From positions 1 to 35,835 of IMG/VR virus record IMGVR_UViG_3300037862_000118: DNA of 35,835 nucleotides; one strand, 5' to 3'. Within the stretch, counting starts at the first letter, position 1; each line of letters opens with the position of its first letter. Under the pieces are notes generated by a model that did not search any database, was not told the DNA's origin, and saw only the letters and a list, made by a program, of their open reading frames with translations. Below, piece after piece: positions 2,856 to 18,464 of the stretch. This DNA comes from a virus. The position numbers and the translations under genes are program-made.

Positions 2856-3293
2856 TTAGGCGCTGCCGCCGTCGAGTGACAGCGCGCGCAGTGCTCCGGC
2901 GGGGGTAATAGCGGCGACCGCTATTCCACCCGAGTTTCGTGCTTCAAAGAGATTCGCGGTCTGGCTCACGGCAGACCGAAGTGCGAGGTTGACAGTTGTT
3001 GTCGCGGTCGGCAGGATGACTGAGCCACCAGCCAAACGCACGAAGTCGTTAATGACGGTGAAGACACCGTCTTCGACGTTTTTGATGCGCTGCCCGACCG
3101 TGACAAGCGACGTTGCTGCGCTGGAGAAGGACCCAATGCCCCATGCGGTGGAACGCGCTTGGGGGTTGAGGCCGACAGTGTTTGCAATCGCCGCAACCTC
3201 TTCATAGACGAGGTTGATGTCGTTAGCGTCGACGGCATCTTGCAGGTTGACCTTGGTGGCGAATGAGACTGACGCACCGGGATAGTTAGCCAC
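2856..3293 (-). CDS. Short fibre-like structural protein
   Basis: The start is a GTG preceded by AAGGAG with good spacing. The product is 145 residues. The opening (ANYPGASVSFATKV, then LQDAVDANDINLVYEEVAAI) resembles short phage fibre or appendage proteins that begin with a particle-binding segment followed by a helix. The remainder is rich in Ala, Thr, Val and Ser with repetitive beta-type patterns (GGSVILPTATTTVNLAL), as in small trimeric fibres. It lacks Cys and His apart from chance. It is sandwiched between the M23 hydrolase and the gpI-like baseplate protein, which supports a tail-tip role. I cannot name the family, and a role as a trimerising base for a larger fibre is inference only. 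Confidence 0.6.
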   Translation of the reverse strand: MANYPGASVSFATKVNLQDAVDANDINLVYEEVAAIANTVGLNPQARSTAWGIGSFSSAATSLVTVGQRIKNVEDGVFTVINDFVRLAGGSVILPTATTTVNLALRSAVSQTANLFEARNSGGIAVAAITPAGALRALSLDGGSA

Positions 3294-3318: not shown

Positions 3319-4281
3319 CTACGGCTTGTTTTGGCTGAGGAACTTAGTGAGTGCTTCAGAGAGCACTTGGACAAAGCGAGTGAACCATCCTGGGGTGGTA
3401 TCGGTACTCGGGGGTACGACTACCGGCGGTACGACGACTGCTGGCAGAGGTACGACTACAGGCTCTGGAACAACTACCGGCTCCGGAACAACTACCGGCG
3501 GGGGGACAACTACCGGCGGTACGACGATTGGCACTGGCACGACCACGGGAGGCGCTACGGCTACCGGCGGAGGTACAACGACCGGCGGTGGTACAACGAC
3601 CGGCGGGGCGGGGAGGGGCGTGACGTCCGCTAGGCCGGAGGTGCTCATGGAGGTGAATCCGCCGCTCCAGTACCAGAGACCGCCCGCGGCGCTAAACCAG
3701 ACAGAATTGCCGCCGACGCTCTCGCCGCGAAGAGTAAAGCCCACCAGAGTGACGACAGAGCCACGAGGCGCGAGAGCTCCCGCTGCTCGGCTTCGGTTGG
3801 GGTCTTGGCGAGAATACGCGCCGTTAGGACCCACTTGGCGCTGGTTAGCCGCCAACGGCGGAGGTGTATCGGTTCCCGGCAGGTTACGCGAAAAGTAGGG
3901 GTTAGGGTCGACGCGGGTGCCGGAGATGTACAACTCAAAGTGCAGGTGGATTCCGCTGGCGCGTCCGGTGTCGCCCATTGTTCCAAGGTGCTGACCTGCA
4001 AACACAGTCGCTCCCACGGCTACCGTGAGGCTCCCTGTCCGTAGGTGGCTGTACGCGGTGCGGACCGTGGGGGTGTGCTCCACCACGATGCGGTTGCCCC
4101 AACCGAGGTTGTCCCCGCCGCCATCTTGAACAGAGACCACACGGCCCGGAGCAGAAGCGACTACCCTCCGTGACCCGGTGATGTTTGCGTTGAACCAGCC
4201 GTAATCTTTGCCCTTGTGACCGGCGTAGGACATCCAATCAGCAGATTCCCAACCGGCGGGTGCGGGGGATATGAGCTTCAT
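3319..4281 (-). CDS. M23-family peptidoglycan endopeptidase with SH3-like domain, Pro/Val rod and amphipathic tail
   Basis: The product has 320 residues and an ATG start behind an AAGGG site. Residues 1-130 form a complete M23 metallopeptidase. H22 and D26 (GHKGKD) and HLH at 112-114 supply the zinc ligands and catalytic His, and YSHL holds H79. Such enzymes cut peptide cross-bridges of the cell wall. Residues ~145-215 look like an SH3-type wall-binding domain (Q.GPNGAYSRQDP..., then GGLWYWSGGFTSM). Residues ~220-293 are an unbroken proline/valine rod made of PVVVPP-like units. The last ~25 residues (GWFTRFVQVLSEALTKFLSQ) form a predicted amphipathic helix. It has no signal peptide. It could be a second endolysin or a particle-associated hydrolase. 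The gene follows a 374-bp gene-poor region, so it may have its own promoter, but none is convincing. Confidence 0.85.
   Translation of the reverse strand: MKLISPAPAGWESADWMSYAGHKGKDYGWFNANITGSRRVVASAPGRVVSVQDGGGDNLGWGNRIVVEHTPTVRTAYSHLRTGSLTVAVGATVFAGQHLGTMGDTGRASGIHLHFELYISGTRVDPNPYFSRNLPGTDTPPPLAANQRQVGPNGAYSRQDPNRSRAAGALAPRGSVVTLVGFTLRGESVGGNSVWFSAAGGLWYWSGGFTSMSTSGLADVTPLPAPPVVVPPPVVVPPPVAVAPPVVVPVPIVVPPVVVPPPVVVPEPVVVPEPVVVPLPAVVVPPVVVPPSTDTTPGWFTRFVQVLSEALTKFLSQNKP
3400..3616 (-). repeat. Degenerate tandem repeat coding the Pro/Val rod of the M23 enzyme
   Basis: On the plus strand the stretch is built from recurring units such as accggcgg and ggtacaacgac with near 18-21 bp spacing. Read on the minus strand these encode PVVVPP-type motifs interrupted by A, E, L or I variants. 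The units are diverged at third positions, so this is an old coding repeat and not a CRISPR or satellite. Confidence 0.8.
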
Positions 4282-5633: not shown

Positions 5634-5795
5634 CTAGCTCGCTTCCGGTGTTGGCTGTTCTTGCTCCCACACTAAGTACGCCTGATAGTCGGAGTTGTTT
5701 TCGTCTTTAGGAATAAACCACACAGTACCGTCGTCGTCTGTTCGCGTGACCTGTTCTTGGGCTAGTGCCCCTGCTGGAATTATTTCGTAAGACAT
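5634..5795 (-). CDS. Small 53-residue protein between two fibre genes
   Basis: The ATG at 5795 overlaps the stop of the upstream fibre gene in a TAATG junction, so translation is probably coupled. The product is acidic. It begins MSYEIIPAGALAQEQVTRTD, continues TVWFIPKDENNSDYQAYLVW, and ends EQPTPEAS. The IP.D..NSDYQAYL.W motif is familiar, from memory, from short proteins or C-terminal tails that sit beside phage tail fibre genes, where they may act as fibre assembly factors. No membrane segment is present. Length, coupling and motif make this a real gene. The assembly role is inferred. Confidence 0.75.
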   Translation of the reverse strand: MSYEIIPAGALAQEQVTRTDDDGTVWFIPKDENNSDYQAYLVWEQEQPTPEAS

Positions 5796-7753
5796 TACAG
5801 TTCCGCCGATGCTTGAATGAATGGAGTTGTTCCGTTTATGTCTGTCCTAATTGTTCCTGCACTATTGACAGGCGCACCTGAGGCGACGTTAATGTCACAC
5901 GTAATGGTGTTAGTAGTTACCGAACCGAATCCGAAGTTGGTAAGAAGGAGGTTTGCGTTATTGGTAAGCACATGCCAAATGCCGGACGCTGACGCGGAGG
6001 GGGCTACACGCATGGGTACCGGTAACTGAAAAGCCCCCCAAGCCCGATTGTCTGTCCAAAAGCTTATAGTGACTAGCCCGGCAGCTAAATTGCCACTCCA
6101 GCGGTAGTAGTACCGTTGGCAAGCAGCCAGTTCCGCCTGAAGAGAGGGGGCATTACGGCGGAAGGGGGTGGCGGTAGTGCCAGCCTCTAGCTGTACTCCA
6201 GTAATGAAGAAGTCCCCCGCAAATGCACCGCTGTTGAGGTACGGAACGACTACTAACCCTCTAGCAGTAGACAAAGGCGCTACACCGACGGTGAAGGTCT
6301 GTGAATACCTAACCCATGCTGAGGTGCTTGCGCCGATGTTTGTCGAATCAAAAACAGGGGTAGCGGCTGTGTACACTCCCTCGGAAAAGGCGACAAATAA
6401 ACCAAGAGTTGCTGCGAGCGATGTTGACGTGCGCGCGAAGAAAGAAACCGTCCAGGTGCTTCCTACAACAAACTCTCCCGCGTTCCCTTGAGCAGGCAGT
6501 TCTATGGCTTGTCGGATAGCGGGATTGGCGGTGGCGTTAGATATCCGTGCCGAGAACGCAATGCCGGGAGGACCCGCCTGCCGGGAAACTACCCCGGTGT
6601 CGGAGGTGAACCTGTCTGCGGTGTATGAGTTGCCAGCAGCAACGCTGACACCCCTCTGCCAAATATCCATTCCACCGTTGATGATGTAGTTCTGGGACAG
6701 GGCAGTGTTGCTGACCTTAGTCACCAGGGCTGTCTGAACTTCAGTATCAAAGTTGCCGGAACTGGATGCCGCGCAAATAATCCATTTGACTACTGTGTAG
6801 GGCTGGAGGTTGTTATGCGCGCTCGCCGCTGGCGTTGTGCTCGTTGTGCCGCTGACGCTGTGCGCGTGCGAGTCTGACGCTGTTGTGCCGCTGACGCTGT
6901 GCGCGTGCGAGTCTGACGCTGTTGTGCCGCTGAACCCATGCGCGTGAGAGGTACCTGCCAAAGTAGCCGAATATCTTCCACTAGCATCATTTCCGGCTCT
7001 GACTCTTGTTGAACCCGAAACGCCGTCGCTGACTGAGAACGAAGCACCTATATCGTTATTTGTGGTTGTGCCGCTGAATCCGTGATTGTGCGAGTCCGAG
7101 CTTGTCGTCGTGCTGAAGGTGTGGGTATGCGAGTCCGAGCTTGTCGTCGCGCTCACAGTGTGACTGTGAGCGGGTGTTTCTGTCGTGCTCAGCTCATGAA
7201 CTTTAGCGCCGCCAGTTTCGCCTAATACATCGAACTCTGTCTGGCTGGCATCATGCCCTACCAGTGTGCGGCCACGGTAGTCAGGAATGTTGAACGTCGT
7301 TGTACCGTCGCCTGCACCGTAGCTCGTGCCCAGCAATGCAAACAGGCCGGAGTAGATAGTCCGAGACACCGCCTGCCCGGTAAGCTCCAATGCCCACGAC
7401 GGAATGGCGTTAGCGGCCCACGGCGTAATAGCCCCCAGCTGGAACGAGCCGCTAGTGCCTGATACGGCAACCCACTGGCTAGAGTCGGCATCTACATACC
7501 GGATATAGGTCTGACCGTCTGTGGAGTCGAACCAGAGGTCCCCGCTTAAAGACGTTGCCGGGGCTGTCGGAGAGACCGTGACGCTACTGCTGGCAAAGTA
7601 GACTAGCTCTGACCAGGTGGATACTCCGTCACCAACTTTAAGCCGCTTAGTGTCGGCCTCGTAGCCCTGCTCACCGCTTGCTAATACCGGGTTAGCGGTG
7701 GTCCACTCGGTAGCAGTTCCCTGTCGTAGTCGAATTGTTGTTTGCGCGGGCAT
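5795..7753 (-). CDS. Tail fibre with Mtd_N-like base, collar domain, His-rich array and carbohydrate-binding-type C-terminus
   Basis: The product has 652 residues and its start overlaps the previous stop (TAATG). Residues ~5-52 (IRLRQGTATEWTTANPVL, KRLKVGDGVSTWSEL) match the N-terminal domain seen in major tropism determinant-type fibres. Residues ~105-190 form a phage tail-collar domain (GAITPWAANAIP, FNIPDYRGRTLVG, EFDVLGETGG). Residues ~188-306 carry HTH, HNH and HAH motifs in 13-residue repeats such as SDSHAHSVSGTTA, which in T4 gp37 tips coordinate metal along a trimer axis. After residue ~345 comes NYIINGGMDIWQRG, the opening of a common fibre lectin module, and a beta-rich C-terminus. 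It shares the collar and His-array architecture with the adjacent spike gene. Confidence 0.85.
   Translation of the reverse strand: MPAQTTIRLRQGTATEWTTANPVLASGEQGYEADTKRLKVGDGVSTWSELVYFASSSVTVSPTAPATSLSGDLWFDSTDGQTYIRYVDADSSQWVAVSGTSGSFQLGAITPWAANAIPSWALELTGQAVSRTIYSGLFALLGTSYGAGDGTTTFNIPDYRGRTLVGHDASQTEFDVLGETGGAKVHELSTTETPAHSHTVSATTSSDSHTHTFSTTTSSDSHNHGFSGTTTNNDIGASFSVSDGVSGSTRVRAGNDASGRYSATLAGTSHAHGFSGTTASDSHAHSVSGTTASDSHAHSVSGTTSTTPAASAHNNLQPYTVVKWIICAASSSGNFDTEVQTALVTKVSNTALSQNYIINGGMDIWQRGVSVAAGNSYTADRFTSDTGVVSRQAGPPGIAFSARISNATANPAIRQAIELPAQGNAGEFVVGSTWTVSFFARTSTSLAATLGLFVAFSEGVYTAATPVFDSTNIGASTSAWVRYSQTFTVGVAPLSTARGLVVVPYLNSGAFAGDFFITGVQLEAGTTATPFRRNAPSLQAELAACQRYYYRWSGNLAAGLVTISFWTDNRAWGAFQLPVPMRVAPSASASGIWHVLTNNANLLLTNFGFGSVTTNTITCDINVASGAPVNSAGTIRTDINGTTPFIQASAEL
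6843..6920 (-). repeat. 39-bp tandem repeat coding His-array units of the fibre
   Basis: Two adjacent near-identical 39-bp units begin at 6843 and 6882, and a third, diverging unit starts at 6921. They encode the 13-residue HAHSVSGTTASDS module. Related diverged units recur at about 7067-7165, so the array grew by unequal exchange. Confidence 0.85.
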
Positions 7754-10014
7754 TACGGTGTCCCTCCGAAAAGCGTTGTTGGTCCGTTTTGTATAGCAGT
7801 CTGCTGAGCGGTAGAGACGGGCTTGTCCGCGTCAGAAGTGTTGTCTACATTCGCTAAGCCGACATCGTTTTTCGCCAAGACGACAACGCCCTGCCGCCCG
7901 GCAACAGAGCTGACTAGGTTGGAACCGGGGACACCCTGCGGACCCTGCTCTCCGGTTGCGCCCGTAGCGCCAGTAGCTCCGACAGGGATGCCGAAGGCAA
8001 ATGTCCGCGCTTCGGGCGTACCCCCCAACGTGATGGTAGGAGCGGCACCAACGGCCAGCCCCGTAGCTGTTGCGGAAGTAATTGTCCCGGAGGGGCCAGT
8101 GGCTCCCGTGTCGCCGGTGACCCCCTGCGCGCCAGTAGCTCCGACGGGGATGCCGAAGGCAAATGTGCGTGCCTCCGCTGTGCCTCCCAAGGTGACAGTA
8201 GGCGTAGCGCCAGCGCTGAGTGCGGTGCTAGTGGCTCCGGTGATAGTGCCTGAAGGCCCCACGGGTCCGGGGACGGTAGAGGCTGCACCCTGCGCGCCGG
8301 TAGCTCCGGTGGCTCCGGTTGTTCCCGTTGCGCCGACGGGTCCTTGGGGACCTGTCGCACCGCCCGCGACGGCAACGACATATCGACCCACGAGGTAGGG
8401 CTGGAGATTATTGTGGGCTTCACCTAAGCCGGAGTTTTGGTTTGTAGCGGTAGTGGCTTGATTTGTTGCTGTCGTGGCGTTGTTGGTTGCGGTAGTGGCT
8501 TGATTTGTTGCTGTCGTGGCGTTGTTAGTTGCGGTAGTGGCTTGATTTGTTGCTGTCGTGGCGTTGTTAGTTGCGGTATTTGTGTTCGACTCCGCCCAGG
8601 TCCCCTGGATGAGGCTTGGGTTATTACTCGGCGCGGAGCCGCCAGTGGCGAGCGAGTTGGAGAAGTAGACAGTAGCGCCGCCGTTATTACCCCAATAAAT
8701 AGTGTGTGAGCCACCCTTAAAGGAGTGTGCGTGAGCGTTCTGCGAGTGGTTGTGTGAGTTCTGGGTGTGGTTGTGACTGTTCTGCGAGTGGTTGTGTGAG
8801 TCCTGGGTGTGGTTGTGACTGTTCTGCGAGTGGTTGTGTGAGTCCTGGGTGTGGTTGTGACTGTTTTGCGTGTGCGTATGGGTACCGTTCTGGTTAGCAG
8901 TCAACGAAACTGTTTTAGCACCGCCTACTTCTCCCAGAACATCGAACTCGACCTGTCCGGTGTCTCTGCCGACAAACACCCTCCCACGGGCATCCGGCAG
9001 AATCAGGTTTGCTCCGGATACCCAGTCGGGGTAGATAGCGGCCAGTTCTGGGTAGAGGGCGACACCGCCGGTGATGGTCTGGCCCTCTAGCGCCAACACT
9101 GCGGGAGACAACACCGCGCTGAACCACAAGAAAATGGAGCCAATAATCATGCCCCTGCCGGTGACCCCCGCTACCCAGGAGTTTCCGTTGTACACCAGGG
9201 AGTCGTTGGCAACCGCAGAAGCCGTAGCGACATCCGAAAGTGAGTCCAAGGTAATCGCAGGAAGCTGGGCGGAACTGAAGACTCCGGTGGTGATGTCTCC
9301 TGCGCCGAGGGTTACTGCAGGCCCGGCGTTGCCGTTGACGGAGGTGACCCCATCTGCCGGAGTAAGAAGCTCTTTCCAGTTGGCTAGCGTTGTCGCGGGA
9401 GACGCCGCCAGCACGAAGCTTTTGGTGACATCGGTGCGGATAGCAAGGTCACCCTTTTGTGCTATCAATGACAGCATTGCTGCTTGGCTGGCGATGACGA
9501 AGGTGTCGTTGATAGCAATAGCCGGGAGGATGGACTCCAGGTCGCTGCTGCCCCACTCACCGGTGGCGCTGTTGTAGCGCAGCACATCGTTGTTGGCAGG
9601 AGCCGGTACCGCCACATCGGTGAGGTCATCGAGCTCATTGGCCTGTGGCGGCAACTGCCGGGACTCCCAGTGACCGGTGACTGCGTCGTAGGTCAGTACC
9701 TGCCCCTCAGCAGGCACGCCGGTCTCGACGTCAGAGAGGTCATCTAAGACAATGACGCGTGAATCCCGTGTCCCAAAGGTCCCTGTCCACAGTGGGTAGG
9801 AGGGGTCACCGCCCTCGAACTCTATCCAGACACCTCCGCCGAGGTTCGGGATTACTAGAGGCAGTCCCGCGGTCTGCTTGGGTGAAATCCAGCCGGTAGT
9901 GCTGGTGCCAAAAACTTTCGGCACCTGCGCCTGGATGCGCCCGGCGTTCAGTGGGTCGCGGGTGCTGACCACCACCCCGCGGTAGGGTCCGTAGAGCCTT
10001 TTTGGCGCGTTCAT
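7753..10014 (-). CDS. Chimeric baseplate spike (gp5/gpV OB-fold) fused to collar, His-array and collagen-like fibre
   Basis: The product has 753 residues. Residues ~7-85 (GPYRGVVVSTRDPLNAGRIQ, then LPNLGGGVWIEFEGGDPSYP) are the OB-fold of gp5/gpV-type spikes, which cap the tail tube. Residues ~88-270 contain three L.DL.DV.....VL.Y....W shaft repeats. Residues ~290-370 form a tail-collar domain (PDARGRVFVGRD, EFDVLGEVGG). Residues ~378-428 are a His array of HNHTQ/HNHSQ units, and residues ~480-525 an Asn/Thr array. Residues ~545 to 715 carry collagen-like G-A-T and G-P-Q runs around two copies of a TLGGT.EARTFAFGIPVGA module. The start lies three bases after the gpJ stop. A usual gpV is about 200 residues, so this protein joins spike and fibre in one chain. 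Confidence 0.85.
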   Translation of the reverse strand: MNAPKRLYGPYRGVVVSTRDPLNAGRIQAQVPKVFGTSTTGWISPKQTAGLPLVIPNLGGGVWIEFEGGDPSYPLWTGTFGTRDSRVIVLDDLSDVETGVPAEGQVLTYDAVTGHWESRQLPPQANELDDLTDVAVPAPANNDVLRYNSATGEWGSSDLESILPAIAINDTFVIASQAAMLSLIAQKGDLAIRTDVTKSFVLAASPATTLANWKELLTPADGVTSVNGNAGPAVTLGAGDITTGVFSSAQLPAITLDSLSDVATASAVANDSLVYNGNSWVAGVTGRGMIIGSIFLWFSAVLSPAVLALEGQTITGGVALYPELAAIYPDWVSGANLILPDARGRVFVGRDTGQVEFDVLGEVGGAKTVSLTANQNGTHTHTQNSHNHTQDSHNHSQNSHNHTQDSHNHSQNSHNHTQNSHNHSQNAHAHSFKGGSHTIYWGNNGGATVYFSNSLATGGSAPSNNPSLIQGTWAESNTNTATNNATTATNQATTATNNATTATNQATTATNNATTATNQATTATNQNSGLGEAHNNLQPYLVGRYVVAVAGGATGPQGPVGATGTTGATGATGAQGAASTVPGPVGPSGTITGATSTALSAGATPTVTLGGTAEARTFAFGIPVGATGAQGVTGDTGATGPSGTITSATATGLAVGAAPTITLGGTPEARTFAFGIPVGATGATGATGEQGPQGVPGSNLVSSVAGRQGVVVLAKNDVGLANVDNTSDADKPVSTAQQTAIQNGPTTLFGGTP
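8447..8572 (-). repeat. Three-copy 42-bp tandem repeat (Asn/Thr array)
   Basis: Units start at 8447, 8489 and 8531 and are nearly identical; a partial unit follows from 8573. Each codes 14 residues of alternating NNATTAT and NQATTAT. Near-identity at third positions implies recent duplication. Confidence 0.95.
8737..8862 (-). repeat. Three-copy 42-bp tandem repeat (His array)
   Basis: Units start at 8737, 8779 and 8821, and a partial unit runs from 8863. Each codes 14 residues containing two HNH triplets (SHNHTQDSHNHSQN type). The first unit differs from the others at one visible base (agttct for agtcct), so copy number may vary between isolates. Confidence 0.95.
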
Positions 10015-10016
10015 AG

Positions 10017-11864
10017 TTAGGCCTTGACGATTGTGAGACGGTAGCTGTTTTGCGTCACGCCGTCTTGGGCTACAACAACGATGGGCACAACCGTTGTCGC
10101 AGTGGGGAGCAGTACCGCCTGCGCCACCTGCGAGGTAGCGACAACACCGGCGATAGTGAACCGCGCGGCAGCACTGGTCACTGCTGTGATGTTGACGGTT
10201 GTCGCCGCCGTGGCTACAAGCAGGGTGTAGTTAAAGAACTCTGCACTGAAGGCGGGGGAGAGGGTTCCGCTGCTCGGGGTCAGCGCAGTGACGCTGGCCT
10301 CGCCGCTCGCGGGAATAATCTCCAGCTCTGATGGGTCGAAGTAGAAGAGTTCTCCCGGCTGTGCCACCAGGATGTCGCGCGCAGCGGATGCCCCGCGGTG
10401 GAGCGCCGTTACTTGCACGTTGGTTGCTCCCGGAACTTCGCGCAAAACGGCCTCTACCTGCTCGGGGTAGATGGTGGCGTTGAAGTTGGTGTTGATGTAG
10501 GAAAAAGCGTCCAACAACCGCACCTGGAGGGCACCGGTGACTTCGGCGCTGGAGAACCCCGCCGCGCGGGTGTACAGCACGCTGCAACTGATGTCGATGT
10601 AGGTCGGGGGGCTCACGGTGACCGTTGCACCAATCTGTCGCCGTGGCTCAAGGACATCTTCAATGGCGCTACGGAGTCCCGACCACTCCAAGGTCAGCGC
10701 GGTGTTGGACTCGTCGTAGAGGGGGTAGGGGTCGCCCACTGCGGTCGTTCGTACGGGGGCAGCAAACACGGTAATGGAGGCAAAGGTGCTCGCCACGGCG
10801 CTCGCCTTGGCGACGTTGGCCGCGCGAAACGTCAGTGAGCCGTAATCTCGGAGGGTCACTGCTCGGTCATTAGTTCTGACGGACTGCTCAGCGGCGGCGC
10901 GAATAACCTCGACACTGTCGGGGTCACTGCCGCCTACGCCTGTGTCGGGGTTTGTAAAGGTGAGAACTCCCGCCAGGCTAAACACTTGGTTATCCGTCAT
11001 ACCCGGGATTCGTACTAAGGTGTTCAGGGTGTTGCTGGGGATGTTACCGCGCACCCCGCCACCCACCGTGTACTGCGCTTTGATGGCGGCAAAAGCGGTG
11101 GGGATAGCACCCGACACCCCATCGCCAAAAATGACACTGACCCTGTTTTCGGCGTCGACCACAACAGAGTAGGCGGGGTCGGTCGGCCCGGCATCGGGCA
11201 AGAAAGAACTCACAGCCCAGATGCCGTACGAGTCCCCGTACTGCACAAATACTCTCAGACTGTCAAGTGCTACTTCCGTCTCCTGCAGGAAGAACCGCTG
11301 AGCGGGCTCCCCGTTTGAAATTCCAAGGGTCTCAGCTGCAATGTCGGTGCTTGCTGCATTTGCTGCTAAAGGATACCGAGAAGAGATGGCTTCACCGTGA
11401 AAGGCAAGGACGGAAGCAGTGCCGTTAGCGGGCACCGTGGCCGAGGCGGAGGTAGTAAACACCACGCTTTCAACGGCATCTCCGACAAGATAGTTGCCGG
11501 AGATTTCAGCTCCCGCGGGGAGTTCTACTGCTTGGTCGCTTTGGCTGGTAACCCGGACAGTGCAAAACGCCGAAGAGAAACCGTTGGGGGTGTACCCCGC
11601 AGAAGCGGCGAGCGCCAAAATGCTGGAGCGCTGAGTCGCTGTCAGGAGAGAGCCCTCGTTAGCGACGCGGTCGGTGTAGTAGCCCAGGACGTCTCCAACG
11701 TACGAGAAGGCCTCGACGAGGGCTAGAGCAAAGTCTGCGGGGTCATTGCCAAACCAGCTGCCCACTCGCGCGCGGACGCGCTCGATGAGGTCTTCGCGCA
11801 GGGAGAAGAAGTCTCGGCTGGTGTAGTCGATGGCTACCGGGCTGGAAAAGTCTGAAATGCTCAC
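10017..11864 (-). CDS. Baseplate J-like (gp6-type) wedge protein
   Basis: The product has 615 residues. It opens with DFSSPVAIDYTSRDFFSLRED, then ALVEAFSYVGDVLGYYTDRVANE, the signature opening of phage baseplate J-like proteins. The middle has VIFGDGVSGAIP and YTVGGGVRGNIPSNTL, also diagnostic, followed by DRAVTLRDYGSLTFRAANVAKA. The C-terminal ~85 residues add an Ig-like cadherin-type domain (ALTPSSGTLSPAFSAEFFNYTL, then NSYRLTIVKA), resembling bacterial Ig-like repeats. Proteins of this family form the wedge dimers that ring the baseplate and drive sheath contraction. The start overlaps the gp25-like gene by four bases (ATGA). Confidence 0.92.
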   Translation of the reverse strand: MSISDFSSPVAIDYTSRDFFSLREDLIERVRARVGSWFGNDPADFALALVEAFSYVGDVLGYYTDRVANEGSLLTATQRSSILALAASAGYTPNGFSSAFCTVRVTSQSDQAVELPAGAEISGNYLVGDAVESVVFTTSASATVPANGTASVLAFHGEAISSRYPLAANAASTDIAAETLGISNGEPAQRFFLQETEVALDSLRVFVQYGDSYGIWAVSSFLPDAGPTDPAYSVVVDAENRVSVIFGDGVSGAIPTAFAAIKAQYTVGGGVRGNIPSNTLNTLVRIPGMTDNQVFSLAGVLTFTNPDTGVGGSDPDSVEVIRAAAEQSVRTNDRAVTLRDYGSLTFRAANVAKASAVASTFASITVFAAPVRTTAVGDPYPLYDESNTALTLEWSGLRSAIEDVLEPRRQIGATVTVSPPTYIDISCSVLYTRAAGFSSAEVTGALQVRLLDAFSYINTNFNATIYPEQVEAVLREVPGATNVQVTALHRGASAARDILVAQPGELFYFDPSELEIIPASGEASVTALTPSSGTLSPAFSAEFFNYTLLVATAATTVNITAVTSAAARFTIAGVVATSQVAQAVLLPTATTVVPIVVVAQDGVTQNSYRLTIVKA

Positions 11865-12277
11865 GCGGGTCCCTCGCTAGGTGGTGAGATTCCGTCGATG
11901 AGGAGGGAACCGATTGATGTGGTGACAGTGTCCTGGTTAGGGAGCTGATACGAAATTGCGACGAGAGTCTGTTTTGCTAACTCATCCCAGACCACCTCGA
12001 CGGAGTCCAGGGTGAGGGCCGGAAGCAACCCGGAAAAGGTTCGTCCCACCTCGTCTTTGATGGCGGTCTCGTTTACCTGCCCCCCGTCAAACACCATCTC
12101 TGCGAGTCGGGAACCGTACGCCATCCGAGAAAACCGCTCTCCTTTTCGGGTAAGCAGTGCCGCGCGCACTCGTTGGTCCCAAATCTGCTCGGGAGAGACT
12201 ACTTCGTTCGCCACTAGCCGAGAAGAGAACCGGAAAGGGAAGCCCAGGGCGCGCTCACCGCTGACGTTTACAGCCAT
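11861..12277 (-). CDS. gp25-like baseplate wedge protein
   Basis: The product has 138 residues. It reads GFPFRFSSRLVANEVVSPEQIWDQRVRAAL and then LTRKGERFSRMAYGSRLAEMVFD. This matches the gp25/GPW family, where the E-R-x-x-x-x-x-G-S/C-x-L pattern is conserved in phages, type VI secretion and other contractile systems. It links the wedge to the first sheath ring. The location just upstream of gpJ is the canonical order. The last codons overlap the gpJ start, so the two are translated together. Confidence 0.9.
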   Translation of the reverse strand: MAVNVSGERALGFPFRFSSRLVANEVVSPEQIWDQRVRAALLTRKGERFSRMAYGSRLAEMVFDGGQVNETAIKDEVGRTFSGLLPALTLDSVEVVWDELAKQTLVAISYQLPNQDTVTTSIGSLLIDGISPPSEGPA

Positions 12278-12290
12278 AGTCGTGCCTTCC

Positions 12291-13556
12291 TTAATCTGCT
12301 ATCCATTGTCCTGGACTTGTCGGTCGGTTTGTGGCGGTAATAGAGGTGCTTAATACCCGAATGGGGGCCTTAAGAACTGTTCCTGCTAACGGCTTATTGC
12401 CTATAGACGCCAGCCTAGAACGGATGTCCACCTGTGCCTTGTTATGCTCAAACTTTCTCCGGAAGGTGCTTCCTGCGTTATTGCCTAAGCCGTCGGTGAG
12501 CAACTGCGCATCGACGGTGTACAGCCCGCTGAGGTCGATACGGTGGTGGGCTTCTGCAACTGCCCAGTAGCCGTCCGTACTGTTGCCGGTGCCGGACACC
12601 AGAACAGTGGAGTAGACCCCCACCCGTGGGTCTCCAAAGCCTTTAAGGTTCGCTGTCGTTGTGAGCCGCACCCGCTGTGCCGCATCCTGCGCGGCGCGGT
12701 CTGCTTCCTGCTGGTTGCCGACTGTTTCTTCTGTTTCATACCCGGCAAACCACGTATCAGAAAGGCCAGCTCGTATGGGGGAGCCGACCTCTTGGGGAAA
12801 ACTTTCCTGCTGGATGACTTCTCTGCTCGCCAGGTCCACGGTAGCTACCGACTTACTGGTGCGGGGCTCTTCGACAGCTTCGGAGTAGTCCCCCTGTAGA
12901 ACTTGGAAAGAGTCCAGTGTCCGTGCGCGGAGGTTGCGCAGCCCACTGTTGATGAGGTTTCCATCAAGCGAGTACAGCGGGACGTAGCTCATGCGACTGT
13001 CCAGGGTCCGGTCGATGCTTTGGAAGAGCAGGTTTGCCCCTTCCACAATGGCGATATAGCCGATGCGGGCGGCTTGCGCTTGAATCCACTGCCAGTAACT
13101 TTCCCCCGAAATAGACAGCTGGTTGAAAACGCGGGGATGCGGCTCTCCCACAAAGTTCAAGCCAAGTTCTTTAGCGATGACGCCTACTGCATCGGGGATG
13201 GAGGTGTTAGAAAAGACGCGTGTCCCGCGGTTTTTGAGGGGGAAGGATGAGCCGATGCAGTAGATTTTGGTGGGCCGCTTTAGCTGCGCGGCGTTGACCT
13301 GCGAGGTGAAGTTGACGTAGCCGGTCCAACGGAGGGTGCTTTCTCCGTTGGACAGCAGCAGCACAATGGGAGTTCCGGTGGTCAGCAGGTTGCCCCACAC
13401 GGGGCGGTAGTTAGGGAAGGTCAGCACCGCGATGTCGTGCTGACCCACAGCTTGATGTAGCTCCAAGATGCTGGGCCGCGCGGTGAGCGAGGGGACAGTG
13501 GGTAGCTCGACAGAGTACTGTCCACTAAACCGATACGCGTTCCCGGACTTAAGCAT
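12291..13556 (-). CDS. Baseplate hub protein, gpD/gp27-like
   Basis: The frame extends upstream of 13556, but that part overlaps the LysM-like gene and has low-complexity, non-protein-like sequence, so I chose the ATG at 13556, which overlaps the upstream stop by eight bases. The product is 421 residues. It has an N-terminal beta domain (SILELHQAVGQHDIAVL..., STLRWTGYVN), then IPDAVGVIAKELGLNFV, typical of late-control D or gp27 hub proteins that form the trimeric ring between tube and spike. Residues ~215-350 contain DSFQVLQGDYSE and a helical segment EADRAAQDAAQRVRL, both usual in gpD-like proteins. No strong ribosome site precedes the start, which fits coupled re-initiation. Confidence 0.75.
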   Translation of the reverse strand: MLKSGNAYRFSGQYSVELPTVPSLTARPSILELHQAVGQHDIAVLTFPNYRPVWGNLLTTGTPIVLLLSNGESTLRWTGYVNFTSQVNAAQLKRPTKIYCIGSSFPLKNRGTRVFSNTSIPDAVGVIAKELGLNFVGEPHPRVFNQLSISGESYWQWIQAQAARIGYIAIVEGANLLFQSIDRTLDSRMSYVPLYSLDGNLINSGLRNLRARTLDSFQVLQGDYSEAVEEPRTSKSVATVDLASREVIQQESFPQEVGSPIRAGLSDTWFAGYETEETVGNQQEADRAAQDAAQRVRLTTTANLKGFGDPRVGVYSTVLVSGTGNSTDGYWAVAEAHHRIDLSGLYTVDAQLLTDGLGNNAGSTFRRKFEHNKAQVDIRSRLASIGNKPLAGTVLKAPIRVLSTSITATNRPTSPGQWIAD

Positions 13557-13827
13557 TAGCCGGAATCCGCAACTGAGTGCCGGGAGTGATAACCATGGGG
13601 TTGAGGATTTCAGGGTTGTAATCCATAATGCGCCACCATAGGTCGCCATTACCCAATAGCTCAAGTGCAACTTGGTCGATGCGGTCGGCACTTTTCCAGA
13701 CGTAGAAGAAGAACTCTCCCGTGACGCGGGGGAAGGCGCGGGGCACGGTGACGTCGTATTGCCGCTTTCTGGCGTTGTACGACAAGTACACCGGGCTATC
13801 AACGTAGCGGCTGTCGCTCATAATCAT
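13549..13827 (-). CDS. LysM/gpX-like baseplate hub protein
   Basis: The product has 92 residues with an AGAGGAG site before an ATG; a second ATG two codons later is also possible. The C-terminal half (ALELLGNGDLWWRIMDYNPE, then NPMVITPGTQLRIP) is a LysM-like fold of the P2 gpX or T4 gp53 type, found in small proteins that bind the hub of contractile tails. The N-terminal half (SPVYLSYNARKRQYDVTVPR) is less clear. It lies between a large hub-like protein and the gpD-like hub. Confidence 0.82.
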   Translation of the reverse strand: MIMSDSRYVDSPVYLSYNARKRQYDVTVPRAFPRVTGEFFFYVWKSADRIDQVALELLGNGDLWWRIMDYNPEILNPMVITPGTQLRIPANA

Positions 13828-13845: not shown

Positions 13846-15147
13846 CTAGACGGCGAATCTGCCGCGGGAGGTGTTTGTGGTAGTGGGCGGCGGCGGGGTG
13901 GCCGCGTCTCTCGTGCTAGCACCCGTTGCTCCACTGTCGCCGGATGTTGCGTAGTCGGGGATTCGGTTAAACGTCAAGCTCAAGGTGCTGAAAGTTGGCA
14001 CCATTCGCTCATTGAAGATGATGTGCCGCAGCGACGCTCCCTGGGTCATTGCCAGGTACTTCAGCGACTTCCCTAAAAAGAGCTCCACCGGGTGTCCGCC
14101 AATCCAGCCAAGGTCGGCAGTGTTGCCGCGGAACTGGGTACCGGCACGAAACCCCAGGATGCTGCTGAGCAGGAACTCAACGTCATACATCGTGCCACGG
14201 TTGTAGATTTGTTCTTGGTCTTTAGCGCTCGGTTTTTGCGGGGAGTAGAGGCTGGGTGGGGAATCACTGCGTAACTGTCCTGCCGCAGTGTAGTACTGCA
14301 TGTCAAAGACGCGATTCAAGATGAGCTGAAATGAAATGCTGGCCTGAGAGACCTGCGAGCCGACGAGGTTGAACACATCCTCGCCGGAGCCGACATAACC
14401 CACGTCAATGTCTGGGATTCCGGCGTAGGTCATGTCGATGCTGCCGGGGTTGTAGTGGAATTGGAACCCAAAACGAGACTGTGTGTTGGTCTTAACGTCG
14501 CTAGGCAGCGCGGCGTTGAAGGAGTAGCTACTCAGCCCTGACCGTGGCACAAAGGACTGAATGATGCCCTTGTTTCCGGCACTGGTTTCCCACAGCTGTT
14601 CAGCCTGTTGAATTACCCGCGGGCGGTTATTGGTCTGGAGGTTAAAGGTCTTGGCAAACGAGGTCAGTGGGCTGAAGTAGGCCTCGGTGACCATGCCCAC
14701 GTTTTGTATTCTCTCGTCAGGGTTTTTGCTTCCCTGTTGTTTTCCTTGAATCCTGTCGAGGATGCCTTGGGACATGAGGCCCGTGCCACTTCCGTTGCCC
14801 ACGCCGAGGCTGAGCCCAACTGCTCTGTTTGTTACCTGTTGCTGCGCTTGGCGTTCCGTGGGCGCTAGAAGTTTTGACCGTTCGCGCACGAGCTGGGATA
14901 TTTCAAGCGACCAGATGCCCTGTATTTTCCTCACGCTCTCAATAGAGGAGGGGATGAAGCCGTACCTCGCAAAGTAGGCTTGCCCGGCAAACGCCACAAT
15001 GAGTCCCGCACTGTTAAGTCCCTCTCCAAACCGTAAGAGCTTCCGCAGTTCTTCGAGTCTCGCGTTGATGCGCGCAAGGTCCCCTATCATGTTGGGCTTT
15101 GGCGGGCTAGAAGTTACGGTTTTGGACGGGGGAACTGGTGATGACAT
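13846..15147 (-). CDS. Large tail hub/baseplate protein of unknown family
   Basis: The product has 433 residues and its ATG overlaps the tape-measure stop (TAATG). Residues ~20-110 are helical with basic and hydrophobic patches. The central part (FGFQFHYNPGSIDMTYAGIPDIDV) and the segment SQASISFQLILNRVFDMQ resemble baseplate proteins found directly after the tape measure in actinobacterial myophages. The C-terminus is a flexible Ala/Thr/Pro tail. I infer that it contacts the tape measure or starts the tube at the hub. I do not recognise a domain that I can name with confidence. Confidence 0.65.
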   Translation of the reverse strand: MSSPVPPSKTVTSSPPKPNMIGDLARINARLEELRKLLRFGEGLNSAGLIVAFAGQAYFARYGFIPSSIESVRKIQGIWSLEISQLVRERSKLLAPTERQAQQQVTNRAVGLSLGVGNGSGTGLMSQGILDRIQGKQQGSKNPDERIQNVGMVTEAYFSPLTSFAKTFNLQTNNRPRVIQQAEQLWETSAGNKGIIQSFVPRSGLSSYSFNAALPSDVKTNTQSRFGFQFHYNPGSIDMTYAGIPDIDVGYVGSGEDVFNLVGSQVSQASISFQLILNRVFDMQYYTAAGQLRSDSPPSLYSPQKPSAKDQEQIYNRGTMYDVEFLLSSILGFRAGTQFRGNTADLGWIGGHPVELFLGKSLKYLAMTQGASLRHIIFNERMVPTFSTLSLTFNRIPDYATSGDSGATGASTRDAATPPPPTTTNTSRGRFAV

Positions 15148-17501
15148 TAGTGGCGTCCCATTCGGCTCATCATTGCGTCTTCTTCGATGTACTCTTTGAC
15201 CTTGCTGGCAAGCTTGCGAGCCTCCGATTCGGAGGCGCTGGCGACAGTGACATTGATAGTCACGTTGGCTCCTCCGCCACCGCTGTGAAGGCCCAGCTGC
15301 TGCTGGCGGTAGGACCGCGCATCCGACTCATTGAGGATTGCCTCCCCCGCATGGACATTGACGGGTCCATCTTGCGCAACGTAGGAGTCGCCGTTCTTGG
15401 CACGGCGGACCCCCGGCATGTAGGTCGATGGCGAACGCCGCTGGCCAGTTCTACTTCCCAATGAAATACTGCTGTTGTCGCCGCCGGTGGCGCTGTCTTT
15501 CCGCCGAAACCCGAAGGTTTCCAGGGTGGAGAGTTGTTCTGTGACTAGGGAGGTGAGGTCCTGGTTTATGGGGAGCAATCCACTACCGCTCATTTTGGTG
15601 GCAGAGGGCATCCCCGCTTTAAGGCTGTTTCCTGTACTAGCGGAATCTACTGTCCCTGCGGCAGTACCTCCCGCGGTTCCATCTCCGACGGTTTGAGACC
15701 CATTGAGAACGCCCATCGGGTCGACGTGAGTGCCGTCTTTCATAATTTCAATGTGAAGGTGCGCCCCCCGTGATGCGCCGGTGTTTCCGACTTTTCCAAT
15801 AACGGTGCCCTTTTTGACTCGCTGCTTATTTGCGACAAGCGTCTGGGACATGTGCGCGTAGAGGCTGGTGTAGCCGTTTTCGTGGTCAATCTTTACGTAC
15901 TTACCCCAGCTCACCTTTCCGGTATCCGCCACAGTGACCACTACCCCATCGGCAATGGCCTGGATAGGTGTTCCCTCTCGGGCACCGATGTCGGTTCCGT
16001 TGTGGTGCTTTCTCTGGCCATCGATAGTTCGCATGCCGAAGCCCGAAGTTACCGCCCCCGGCGTAGGCGTGGCCCACGCAGACGCGTCGCCCGCCGCCGC
16101 CGCCGCGGTGGTGGTTCCCCCCGCATTGCGGTTGCTCGCATCGCCGCTACCAAAGCCGAATGACCCTGCCGCGGTGCCCGCGCCGAGGGTAGTGGCTCCC
16201 AGTGCCAGGCTGCTGTTGTTGTCCCCAGTACCGCTTGTTGCCCGAGAGGAGACCCCCAGCGACAGGCTGCTGTCGCTGCCCCCGATGCCGCCCGTTGCCC
16301 GCGAGGAGACACCCAGCGAAAGGCTGCTGTTGTTGTCCCCGACTCCGAAAACCCGCAGTGCGCCCCTACCGGTGTTGCTGGAGTTAAGCCCCGCACCGAG
16401 GTTGGCGATGTAGATGACCGTGTCGACAAAGGTCTTCATCGGTCCGTCAGAAAGCGTCTGCATCAGGCCTGTAAAGGTGTCCGTTACATCAGCCGCCTTG
16501 GTGATGCTGCGCAGGTAGGTGTCCATGTTGTCGTCTATCAGCTTGGTGTCGTTAGCTGCCATCCGGTTGTACGCCAGGCTGGGGTTTTTATCGGGGTTGC
16601 TCGCCGCCTGCTCTCGCGTCATGCCCGTGTTTGTCAGGTCCATCGGCTTCCCACCGGCGTCTGAGATGAGGCTTGCGCGCACCATCTCCTGCATGTTGCC
16701 GTCGAGTCCGAGGCCTTTAAGGCTTGCGCCTAGCCCCCCGCGGTAGAAAGAATCATTGACGCCCTTTTCCGTAAGGGGTCCTTTGCCAGTGTACAGTCGG
16801 CTTTTAATCTGCTCGATGATGTCCGTTGTACTGAGCTGTTCGCCGGTGGCGGGGTCGGATGTGTAGATACCGAGCTGGCGCATCATGTTGGCGGAGCCCG
16901 CACCACTGGATAGTTGCAGGGCGGACTGTTGAACATCTTCGGGGTCCAGACCCAGGAGTGCCGAGGCGTTTCCTCCTAGACGCATTGTTTCTTTTCCGAA
17001 GCGGCCCGTAGGGTCTACTCCATAGTTGACCTGTTGTTGGGCCATGACCGCATCTTGACCCCGGTACTGCATTCCTCCCGTACCGCTGAGGTTGGTAAAC
17101 GCCGCGTTCCGAACCTGCTCCATCGTGGTCCCGCCCCCGATGCGGATGGCGCTGGAGTAAAGCCGAGCGGCGCGGGCCGCTGAGTCTTGGGGGGTACCTG
17201 CGGACTCAATGGCAACATTGCCAAACCGGGCCGCGACGTCGACTATTCCACTAAGCGCTTGGCCGCCGGGACCGGGGACCAGGCTGGCGGCACCTTGAGC
17301 CACACCCGCGACGGCACCGTATAGACCACCGTTCTGCGCTCCGGACTGGACGGTCGCAAGTGCTCCAGCCATGGAGTTGCCGCCGCCGCCACCGGCACCA
17401 AAGCGGGAACCACTGTCCAGAGACTTGTCTATCTTCTGCAGGACTGTTGCCAGGCTCTCGGCTTGCGCCAAGACCTTAGTCAGGTTATCCATCAGGCTCA
17501 T
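15147..17501 (-). CDS. Tape measure protein with internal M23 peptidase
   Basis: The product has 784 residues and starts four bases into the upstream small frame (ATGA). The first ~400 residues are Gly/Ala-rich helical segments (VAGVAQGAASLVPGPGGQAL and others), as usual for tape measures. Residues ~498-595 form an M23 metallopeptidase with HHNGTDIG and HLHIEI zinc motifs, which probably opens peptidoglycan during DNA ejection. The C-terminus reads KNGDSYVAQDGPVNVHAGEAILN, a common ending of tape-measure proteins, and closes with an Ala/Ser/Lys helix. At roughly 0.15 nm per residue (a general rule) the length would suit a tail of about 110-120 nm. A Ser/Leu/Gly repeat sits before the peptidase. 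Confidence 0.85.
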   Translation of the reverse strand: MSLMDNLTKVLAQAESLATVLQKIDKSLDSGSRFGAGGGGGNSMAGALATVQSGAQNGGLYGAVAGVAQGAASLVPGPGGQALSGIVDVAARFGNVAIESAGTPQDSAARAARLYSSAIRIGGGTTMEQVRNAAFTNLSGTGGMQYRGQDAVMAQQQVNYGVDPTGRFGKETMRLGGNASALLGLDPEDVQQSALQLSSGAGSANMMRQLGIYTSDPATGEQLSTTDIIEQIKSRLYTGKGPLTEKGVNDSFYRGGLGASLKGLGLDGNMQEMVRASLISDAGGKPMDLTNTGMTREQAASNPDKNPSLAYNRMAANDTKLIDDNMDTYLRSITKAADVTDTFTGLMQTLSDGPMKTFVDTVIYIANLGAGLNSSNTGRGALRVFGVGDNNSSLSLGVSSRATGGIGGSDSSLSLGVSSRATSGTGDNNSSLALGATTLGAGTAAGSFGFGSGDASNRNAGGTTTAAAAAGDASAWATPTPGAVTSGFGMRTIDGQRKHHNGTDIGAREGTPIQAIADGVVVTVADTGKVSWGKYVKIDHENGYTSLYAHMSQTLVANKQRVKKGTVIGKVGNTGASRGAHLHIEIMKDGTHVDPMGVLNGSQTVGDGTAGGTAAGTVDSASTGNSLKAGMPSATKMSGSGLLPINQDLTSLVTEQLSTLETFGFRRKDSATGGDNSSISLGSRTGQRRSPSTYMPGVRRAKNGDSYVAQDGPVNVHAGEAILNESDARSYRQQQLGLHSGGGGANVTINVTVASASESEARKLASKVKEYIEEDAMMSRMGRH
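16210..16345 (-). repeat. 57-bp tandem repeat in the tape measure
   Basis: Units begin at 16210, 16267 and 16324; the third is partial. Each codes 19 residues around NSSLSLGVSSRAT. The copies differ at several bases, so the array is moderately old. It precedes the M23 domain and looks like a flexible spacer. Confidence 0.85.
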
Positions 17502-17648: not shown

Positions 17649-18464
17649 TTAGAATCGAAACAACGCCCCAATGCTAATTGGGACCACCACTTCAGCCCCG
17701 CAATCGGGGCACTCGGCAGTCGTTTCTTCAAAGATGGGGCCGGGATTGCGTTTGGCGATTTCAGCAGAAATCTTGCGACGGTCTGCAATGCCAAGGTTTT
17801 GAATCTGGGCATCGGAGTAGACGGGGTGGTTGTCGATTTTCACGATGCAGCCGCGCAGCAGGACAGTGCTGAGTTCAGGTCCAGACTTTGAGCCGCTGTT
17901 AGTCAGCTCCTTTTGAGTTTTTCCGTCGGGGAAAGTCACCAGGAAGGTGGACTTCTTGCCTTTGACTTCAAAAACACGGTCATTGAGGGGGTCCGCAAGG
18001 ATTCGCTGTTTGATGTCCACGGTGATGTCGACCAGGGCTTCTTTCGGCTCCTGACACTTTGTGCAGAAGGCCTGCAGCGGTGCGGGAGTACCGAAAGTGG
18101 CCGTGAAAATACCCACCAACAAAGCTTCACGGTCACCGATGAGGAGTCGGTCCAACAAAGCCTCTGTGCAGGGTTCAGTACCGATGTGCGTCACGCCCTG
18201 CACAAGCGCGGTATTTAGGGCCGCACCGGCGGTGCTGTGCCGAAAGATAGCCTCCTCATCGCGGCCCGTCAGTTCCCGGACGCTCGCAGTGCGGATAATA
18301 TCTCCGTCGACAGTCATGAAGCCTCCCGGAAGAGCCACCACGAGGTCTCCCGGGAGGGAGAGCTCGATACCTGTCGCTTCCTCCGGCTCCCCGGCCAGCG
18401 CCTGCTCGATGAGGGCGCTGGCCAGGTCCGGACTGGTACCGGCGGAAAGAGTTTTTTGTGCCAT
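17649..18464 (-). CDS. gp26-like tail/baseplate assembly chaperone with zinc knuckles
   Basis: The product has 271 residues. The N-terminal part (LPGDLVVALPGGFMTVDGDI, then TASVRELTGRDEEAI) resembles the T4 gp26-type baseplate hub assembly family. A CTKC pair (about 136-139) and a CPDC pair (about 256-259) make two zinc-binding half sites, and the protein ends GALFRF. It lies between the tube and tape-measure genes, where tail assembly chaperones are found. The sequence TTT CGA TTC TAA at the end could permit a +1 shift. I judge the family assignment likely but not certain. Confidence 0.7.
   Translation of the reverse strand: MAQKTLSAGTSPDLASALIEQALAGEPEEATGIELSLPGDLVVALPGGFMTVDGDIIRTASVRELTGRDEEAIFRHSTAGAALNTALVQGVTHIGTEPCTEALLDRLLIGDREALLVGIFTATFGTPAPLQAFCTKCQEPKEALVDITVDIKQRILADPLNDRVFEVKGKKSTFLVTFPDGKTQKELTNSGSKSGPELSTVLLRGCIVKIDNHPVYSDAQIQNLGIADRRKISAEIAKRNPGPIFEETTAECPDCGAEVVVPISIGALFRF
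17652..17660 (-). other. Candidate +1 frameshift site at the end of the chaperone gene
   Basis: On the minus strand TTT (17660-17658) is followed by CGA and TTC before the TAA at 17649. A Phe tRNA on TTT can re-pair perfectly with TTC after a +1 slip, and CGA is often a slow codon. The new frame gives 52 residues and joins the small ORF that ends at 17498. No experimental support is available here. Confidence 0.35.

Follow-up and report, generated by a model that had tools for sequence, protein, structure and literature searches.

The window, by which we mean the whole stretch of DNA analysed, is a linear virus record of 35,835 bases with a GC content of 0.587. It carries genes for a terminase, a portal, a major capsid protein, a sheath, a tube, a tape-measure candidate bearing an M23 domain and a D-like hub, as well as gp25, baseplate J, fibres and a gpI-like protein. 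The terminase shares 49-50% identity with its counterparts in the Streptomyces phages LuckySocke, Alone3, BRock, pSt2308 and GiJojo; BRock has been reported to be a myovirus with a genome of 112.5 kb (PMC7453282). The window is probably a fragment of a larger genome, possibly of about 110 kb, of a contractile phage whose actinobacterial host we infer. Two separate M23 peptidases are encoded in the tail region (3319-4281 and 15147-17501), one within the tape-measure candidate and one followed by a long PVVVPPP-rich stretch. The protein encoded after the tube gene (17649-18464; phrog_150, baseplate hub) contains two CxxC pairs, which may form a zinc site. The baseplate and fibre genes, and the segments of the gene at 7753-10014, are arranged along the minus strand as follows.

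12291..13802, minus strand: D/gp27-like hub (phrog_52, E 8e-11; LuckySocke g95, E 1e-9), with no spike gene before gp25
11861..12277, minus strand: gp25/W baseplate wedge (PF04965)
10017..11864, minus strand: baseplate J (PF04865; LuckySocke g98) with a C-terminal cadherin-like domain (PF12733, E 1.9e-9)
7753..10014, minus strand: spike-fibre fusion gene of 753 aa (open reading frame; same fusion in the sister contig L002)
9751..9996, minus strand: OB-fold spike domain, residues 7-88 (PF04717, E 8e-11; PDB spike matches; LuckySocke g96, 39% over 82 aa)
9649..9747, minus strand: first shaft repeat, LDDLSDV...TYDAVTGHW, residues 90-122 (sequence)
9544..9633, minus strand: second shaft repeat, LDDLTDV...RYNSATGEW, residues 128-157 (sequence)
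9280..9534, minus strand: fibre module common to many actinophage minor tail proteins, residues 161-245 (phrog_5207, phrog_23595; tblastn matches in 338 phage records)
9160..9249, minus strand: third repeat, LDSLSDV...VYNGNSWV, residues 256-285 (sequence)
8881..9153, minus strand: tail-collar domain, residues 288-378 approximately (profile against T4 gp12 1OCY, E 4.4e-5, and A-1(L) fibre 8KEC)
8719..8880, minus strand: outgoing needle arm, eight HxH heptads from residue 379 (array reading; 42-bp tandem repeat)
8581..8718, minus strand: tip loop of the needle, variable, residues 433-478 (nucleotide identity to L002 about 25%, against 99-100% upstream)
8419..8580, minus strand: return needle arm, seven ATN(N/Q)ATT heptads, residues 479-532 (array reading; 42-bp tandem repeat)
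8362..8418, minus strand: collar-closing strand AHNNLQPYLVGRYVV, residues 533-551, the chain end in most relatives (collar-needle alignment)
7909..8361, minus strand: collagen-like runs alternating with two SGTIT..FAFGIPVGA modules, residues 552-702 (sub-threshold match to Pfam Collagen, 25.1 bits)
7756..7908, minus strand: C-terminal module SVAGRQG..GLANVDNTSDADKPVSTA, residues 703-753 (phrog_13892, phrog_30593)
5795..7753, minus strand: second fibre with Mtd_N, collar and another His needle (Pfam; needle half differs in L002)

The gene at 7753-10014 is read from an ATG at 10014 to a stop at 7753 as a minus-strand frame of 753 residues that is open throughout; the plus strand of 7753-10014 has no long open frame. 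The first-pass annotation had described here a single chain joining an OB-fold N-terminus, a collar, a His array and a collagen-like fibre. Open reading frame, Pfam and PHROGs bear out both the gene and this domain order and supply the strand, which had been left unstated. The His motifs are likewise present, but their repeat unit is the heptad HNHTQNS and not an isolated HNH triplet. Over the remainder of the protein, PHROGs detected fibre, collar and minor tail modules, and low-complexity linkers are present in the chain. It runs from the collar along the needle outwards and back, with the collar revisited before the collagen-like part; the Gly-X-Y runs from residue 552 are short and reach 25.1 bits with Pfam Collagen, below the cut-off of 27.2. 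The terminal GGTP and stop are encoded by GGAGGGACACCGTAATG (7740-7765, minus strand), in which the codons of the last glycines double as the likely RBS of the next fibre gene. The MellowYellow gp37 protein likewise ends in GGTP and is followed by an Mtd_N gene.

Residues 11-79 score 42.6 bits with Phage_base_V (PF04717), above its cut-off of 23.8 (E 8e-11), profile matches of residues 1-90 in the PDB are VgrG, Pvc8, Afp8, a 210-residue Gp5 and the A-1(L) central spike, and by BLAST the OB region is 39% identical to the short spike LuckySocke g96 over 82 aa (E 2e-13). These matches uphold the assignment of residues 1-90 as an OB-fold spike domain. A gpV spike ends in a piercing beta-helix. Here the OB domain is followed by shaft, collar, needle and collagen-like modules, with no C-terminal triple-stranded beta-helix, an element that is typical of such spikes and absent in the diffocin spike.

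In LuckySocke, pSt2308, GiJojo and BRock the genes are ordered hub, short spike (201-210 aa), gp25 and J. BLAST paired the window with LuckySocke gene by gene: the hub with g95, the OB region with g96, J with g98, and positions 2856-3293 and 737-2839 with g99 and g100, respectively. The hub and gp25 genes of the window are 13 bases apart, so that no spike gene lies between them and the usual spike slot, whose occupancy is not strictly defining, is empty. The OB gene follows J, and fibre genes have been added between J and gpI. Judged by its sequence, the OB domain is an ortholog of the BRock-type short spike encoded by a relocated gene. Since tblastn against the phage collection gave no match to the hub protein, the assignment of the hub rests on phrog_52 and LuckySocke g95. 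A separate gpV-like gene, which the first-pass annotation had named, together with a lack of similarity of residues 1-90 to OB-fold spikes, as what would speak against a fused spike, was not detected in the 35.8-kb contig, a linear fragment reaching from the terminase to gpI: PF04717 matched in one place, and two OB profiles scored no other open reading frame. Neither a PAAR tip protein nor a reverse transcriptase of a diversity-generating element was found in the contig. In the BRock-type short spike itself (L012:11989-12594 and relatives), the C-terminal half matches phrog_16452 (unknown function) as well as a protein of Streptomyces phage Rowa, and may be a small receptor-binding domain.

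A collar-needle profile built from 20 aligned segments matched almost all of the A-1(L) long tail fibre (PDB 8KEC; E 9.5e-21; residues about 288-551) and the T4 gp12 collar (1OCY; E 4.4e-5), in line with the collar claimed earlier, whereas a single-sequence PDB search with the collar-needle region gave no match. The arm of the A-1(L) fibre has been described as T4 gp37-like (PMC10966104), and HxH needles are well known in phage fibres (PMC11705849). In most relatives the chain stops at the strand ...NNLQPYIVLNYIIK, while the window protein runs on for 200 residues more.

The outgoing arm displays eight HxH motifs with an exact spacing of 7 residues (residues 379-430; heptad HNHTQNS), and the return arm carries heptads of its own, ATNNATT/ATNQATT (residues 479-532). 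At the DNA level each arm is a tandem array of 42-bp units that span two heptads and are 96% matched. The number of return heptads equalled that of HxH heptads minus one in 33 of the 47 homologs with regular spacing, by strict count. Permuted arm pairs obeyed this rule in a mean of 9.4 and a maximum of 22 cases in 50,000 trials, a comparison that yields no clean probability because the sequences are related. Several exceptions were failures of the counter: read by eye, L171 has seven units and L155, L156 and L170 have four. With a more tolerant repeat counter the return arm came out one unit too long (22 of 35 exact), and the strict count is quoted instead. Moreover, nine-residue HGHGxxDPG units in the outgoing arm lie opposite TGxxVN inserts of equal rank, counted from the base (3 in L002 and L144, 2 and 4 in L183). 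Matched arm lengths and insert ranks are what a hairpin needle requires. An AlphaFold monomer of collar and needle was poor (mean pLDDT 51) and was not used, so the hairpin rests on homology and counting. The matched-arm rule provides a sequence-only route to recognise and measure gp37-type needles. In some phage fibres (L200, L206-L211) the arm order looks reversed, an ATNQAQT arm preceding the HxH arm, and the hairpin may be circularly permuted there.

The search for OB relatives comprised 30 viral-contig loci and 80 loci kept from bacterial and archaeal species genomes. More than 355 residues after the OB domain were present only in the window and L002 (IMGVR_UViG_3300037331_000080), a rarity that holds for the neighbourhood of close relatives favoured by the search pattern. 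L002 carries the same fusion, with the first 378 residues 100% identical. From 18560 down to 8961 most 150-base blocks of the two contigs share 99-100% identity; in the tip loop the value is about 25%, and along the collagen-like tail it is 83-99% again. In the second fibre gene, the start is near-identical in L002 and divergence sets in from about 7238, that is, in its needle half. Receptor-binding parts usually show this pattern, in which the tip is exchanged while the backbone stays the same. The needle, which is swapped between these near-identical phages, would be the receptor-binding tip. L002 contains a further open reading frame (12164-12826) with the same unusual collar (ALAMEGQTITGGVALFPALAAI) and a needle of five HxH motifs with the nine-residue insert, which suggests copying of the collar-needle between fibre genes. 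Shared fibre modules alone were rejected as a sign of a spike: MellowYellow gp37, a top tblastn match, has an Mtd_N start and no OB domain.

We consider it likely, with a probability of about 0.72, that the protein is the central spike of a BRock-like lineage of contractile actinophages, extended into a fibre with a needle. As we infer its arrangement, the N-terminal OB domain would cap the D/gp27-like hub as a trimer, like gpV and gp5, and the shaft, collar, outward needle and collagen-like tail beyond it would replace the beta-helix of gpV or the small C-terminal domain of the BRock-type spike. In the needle, outgoing HxH heptads would pair with returning ATNQATT heptads to form a hairpin with a variable tip loop, probably holding metal ions along its three-fold axis in the manner of T4 gp37. 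The needle would contact the host surface and, on contraction, the spike-fibre trimer would lead the tube. The collagen-like tail would begin after the return to the collar, and its exit path from a three-fold axis occupied by the needle is not obvious, which counts against the model.

A variant of this model, not exclusive with it, has the spike-fibre cleaved or shed on contact, so that it would serve adhesion before contraction only. A long flexible fibre ahead of the tube would be awkward for penetration, and the low-complexity linkers fit cleavage or shedding; no protease site or maturation signal was identified, however, and we regard this course of events as rather unlikely. Less probable still is that the OB fold is a mere attachment domain of a peripheral fibre and that another, unrecognised protein forms the true spike. 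The position of the gene among fibre genes after J, outside the spike slot, agrees with such a role, as does the wide reuse of OB domains, and since the contig is a fragment of a larger genome, a second spike gene could lie outside it. This is countered by the orthology of the OB domain to the BRock-type short spike, by the empty slot and by the two OB profiles that single out this one gene in the contig. Although 42-bp tandem repeats are able to mislead assemblers, we dismiss a metagenome assembly or frame artefact as most improbable, because the junction of OB and fibre parts sits in unique sequence well away from the repeats, recurs 100% identical in a second contig with the same fusion, and belongs to an uninterrupted frame.

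A similar extension of a spike into a fibre looks frequent in Arthrobacter myophages, whose 'minor tail proteins' match the fibre modules of the window by tblastn. Several such phages, among them Jawnski, Martha and PrincessTrina, have contractile tails by electron microscopy (PMC5513430). ArV1 gp22 and its relatives, recognised by their N-terminal region, occur in 72 Arthrobacter records; the ten that were read have 587-828 aa, and genes of this type come after those for a LysM protein, the hub and a protein of about 134 residues. A PF04717 search with the ArV1 gp22-type N-terminus gave no match, and its profile comparison with the spike OB domain was weak (probability 48%, near shuffled controls). 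Its AlphaFold model has an OB core with pLDDT of about 85-90, for which the best Foldseek matches were the spikes of the Streptomyces coelicolor injection system baseplate, PVC, R2 pyocin, P2 gpV and A-1(L). The top spike matches reached Z 8-9.7, compared with Z 7-8 for generic OB folds (proteasome ATPases, IF-1). In this model the OB fold is firm and its identity as a contractile spike probable. The Arthrobacter proteins would be a second, independent spike and fibre in one chain and so lend separate support to the spike-fibre reading of the window protein, and a widespread 'minor tail protein' family would gain an identity and a virion location open to testing.

More tentatively, and at somewhat less than even odds, contractile phages of Actinobacteria may repeatedly have converted the spike into a receptor-binding fibre on the axis, here with a swappable metal needle of variable length and in the Arthrobacter phages with other modules. 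If true, the tip of the tube itself would detect the host and bind to it, both before firing and while it takes place, and the textbook split between an axial puncturing spike and receptor-binding fibres at the rim would fail for a group of such phages of Actinobacteria, hosts that we assume to have no outer membrane of the Gram-negative type.

Our literature search found no PF04717 spike combined with a gp37-type needle, nor any account of the spread of such a combination in Arthrobacter phages. The gpV/gp5 spikes (P2 gpV, T4 gp5, VgrG, A-1(L) gp25) resemble the window protein in the OB domain and in the hub, gp25 and J gene neighbours, but carry a piercing beta-helix in place of its long fibre, collar and needle, and the window gene has moved behind J. 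The BRock-like short spike (LuckySocke g96, BRock gp130) is the closest ortholog of the OB domain and shares the flanking baseplate genes, yet has only 201-210 aa and a small C-terminal domain with a weak phrog_16452 match. ArV1 gp22 (phrog_5207) has a predicted OB N-terminus, fibre modules in common with the window and a gene near that of the hub, whereas its OB domain is too diverged for Pfam and the members read have no collar or His needle. The A-1(L) long tail fibre (8KEC), T4 gp12 and gp37 share the collar and HxH needle; unlike the window protein, they sit at the periphery, have chains that end at the collar and carry no OB domain. The diffocin spike CD1369 is likewise an OB barrel without a beta-helix and has an HxH iron site at its tip, but it is short, with the hairpin inside the OB barrel and no fibre (PMC10996793). 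The premise of the first-pass annotation that spike and fibre are separate proteins in well-known contractile phages is not universal. In Vp4 gp111, the central spike of a Bacillus myophage, a spike-like N-terminal part and host-binding modules share one chain, while the relative Deep-Blue splits these roles over two proteins; gp111 differs from the window protein in its carbohydrate-binding modules and coiled coils, lacks a collar-needle and was described as R2-pyocin-spike-like (PMC11406892). Given Vp4 gp111, the diffocin spike and the HxH fibres as precedents, the principle of joining spike and fibre is not new.
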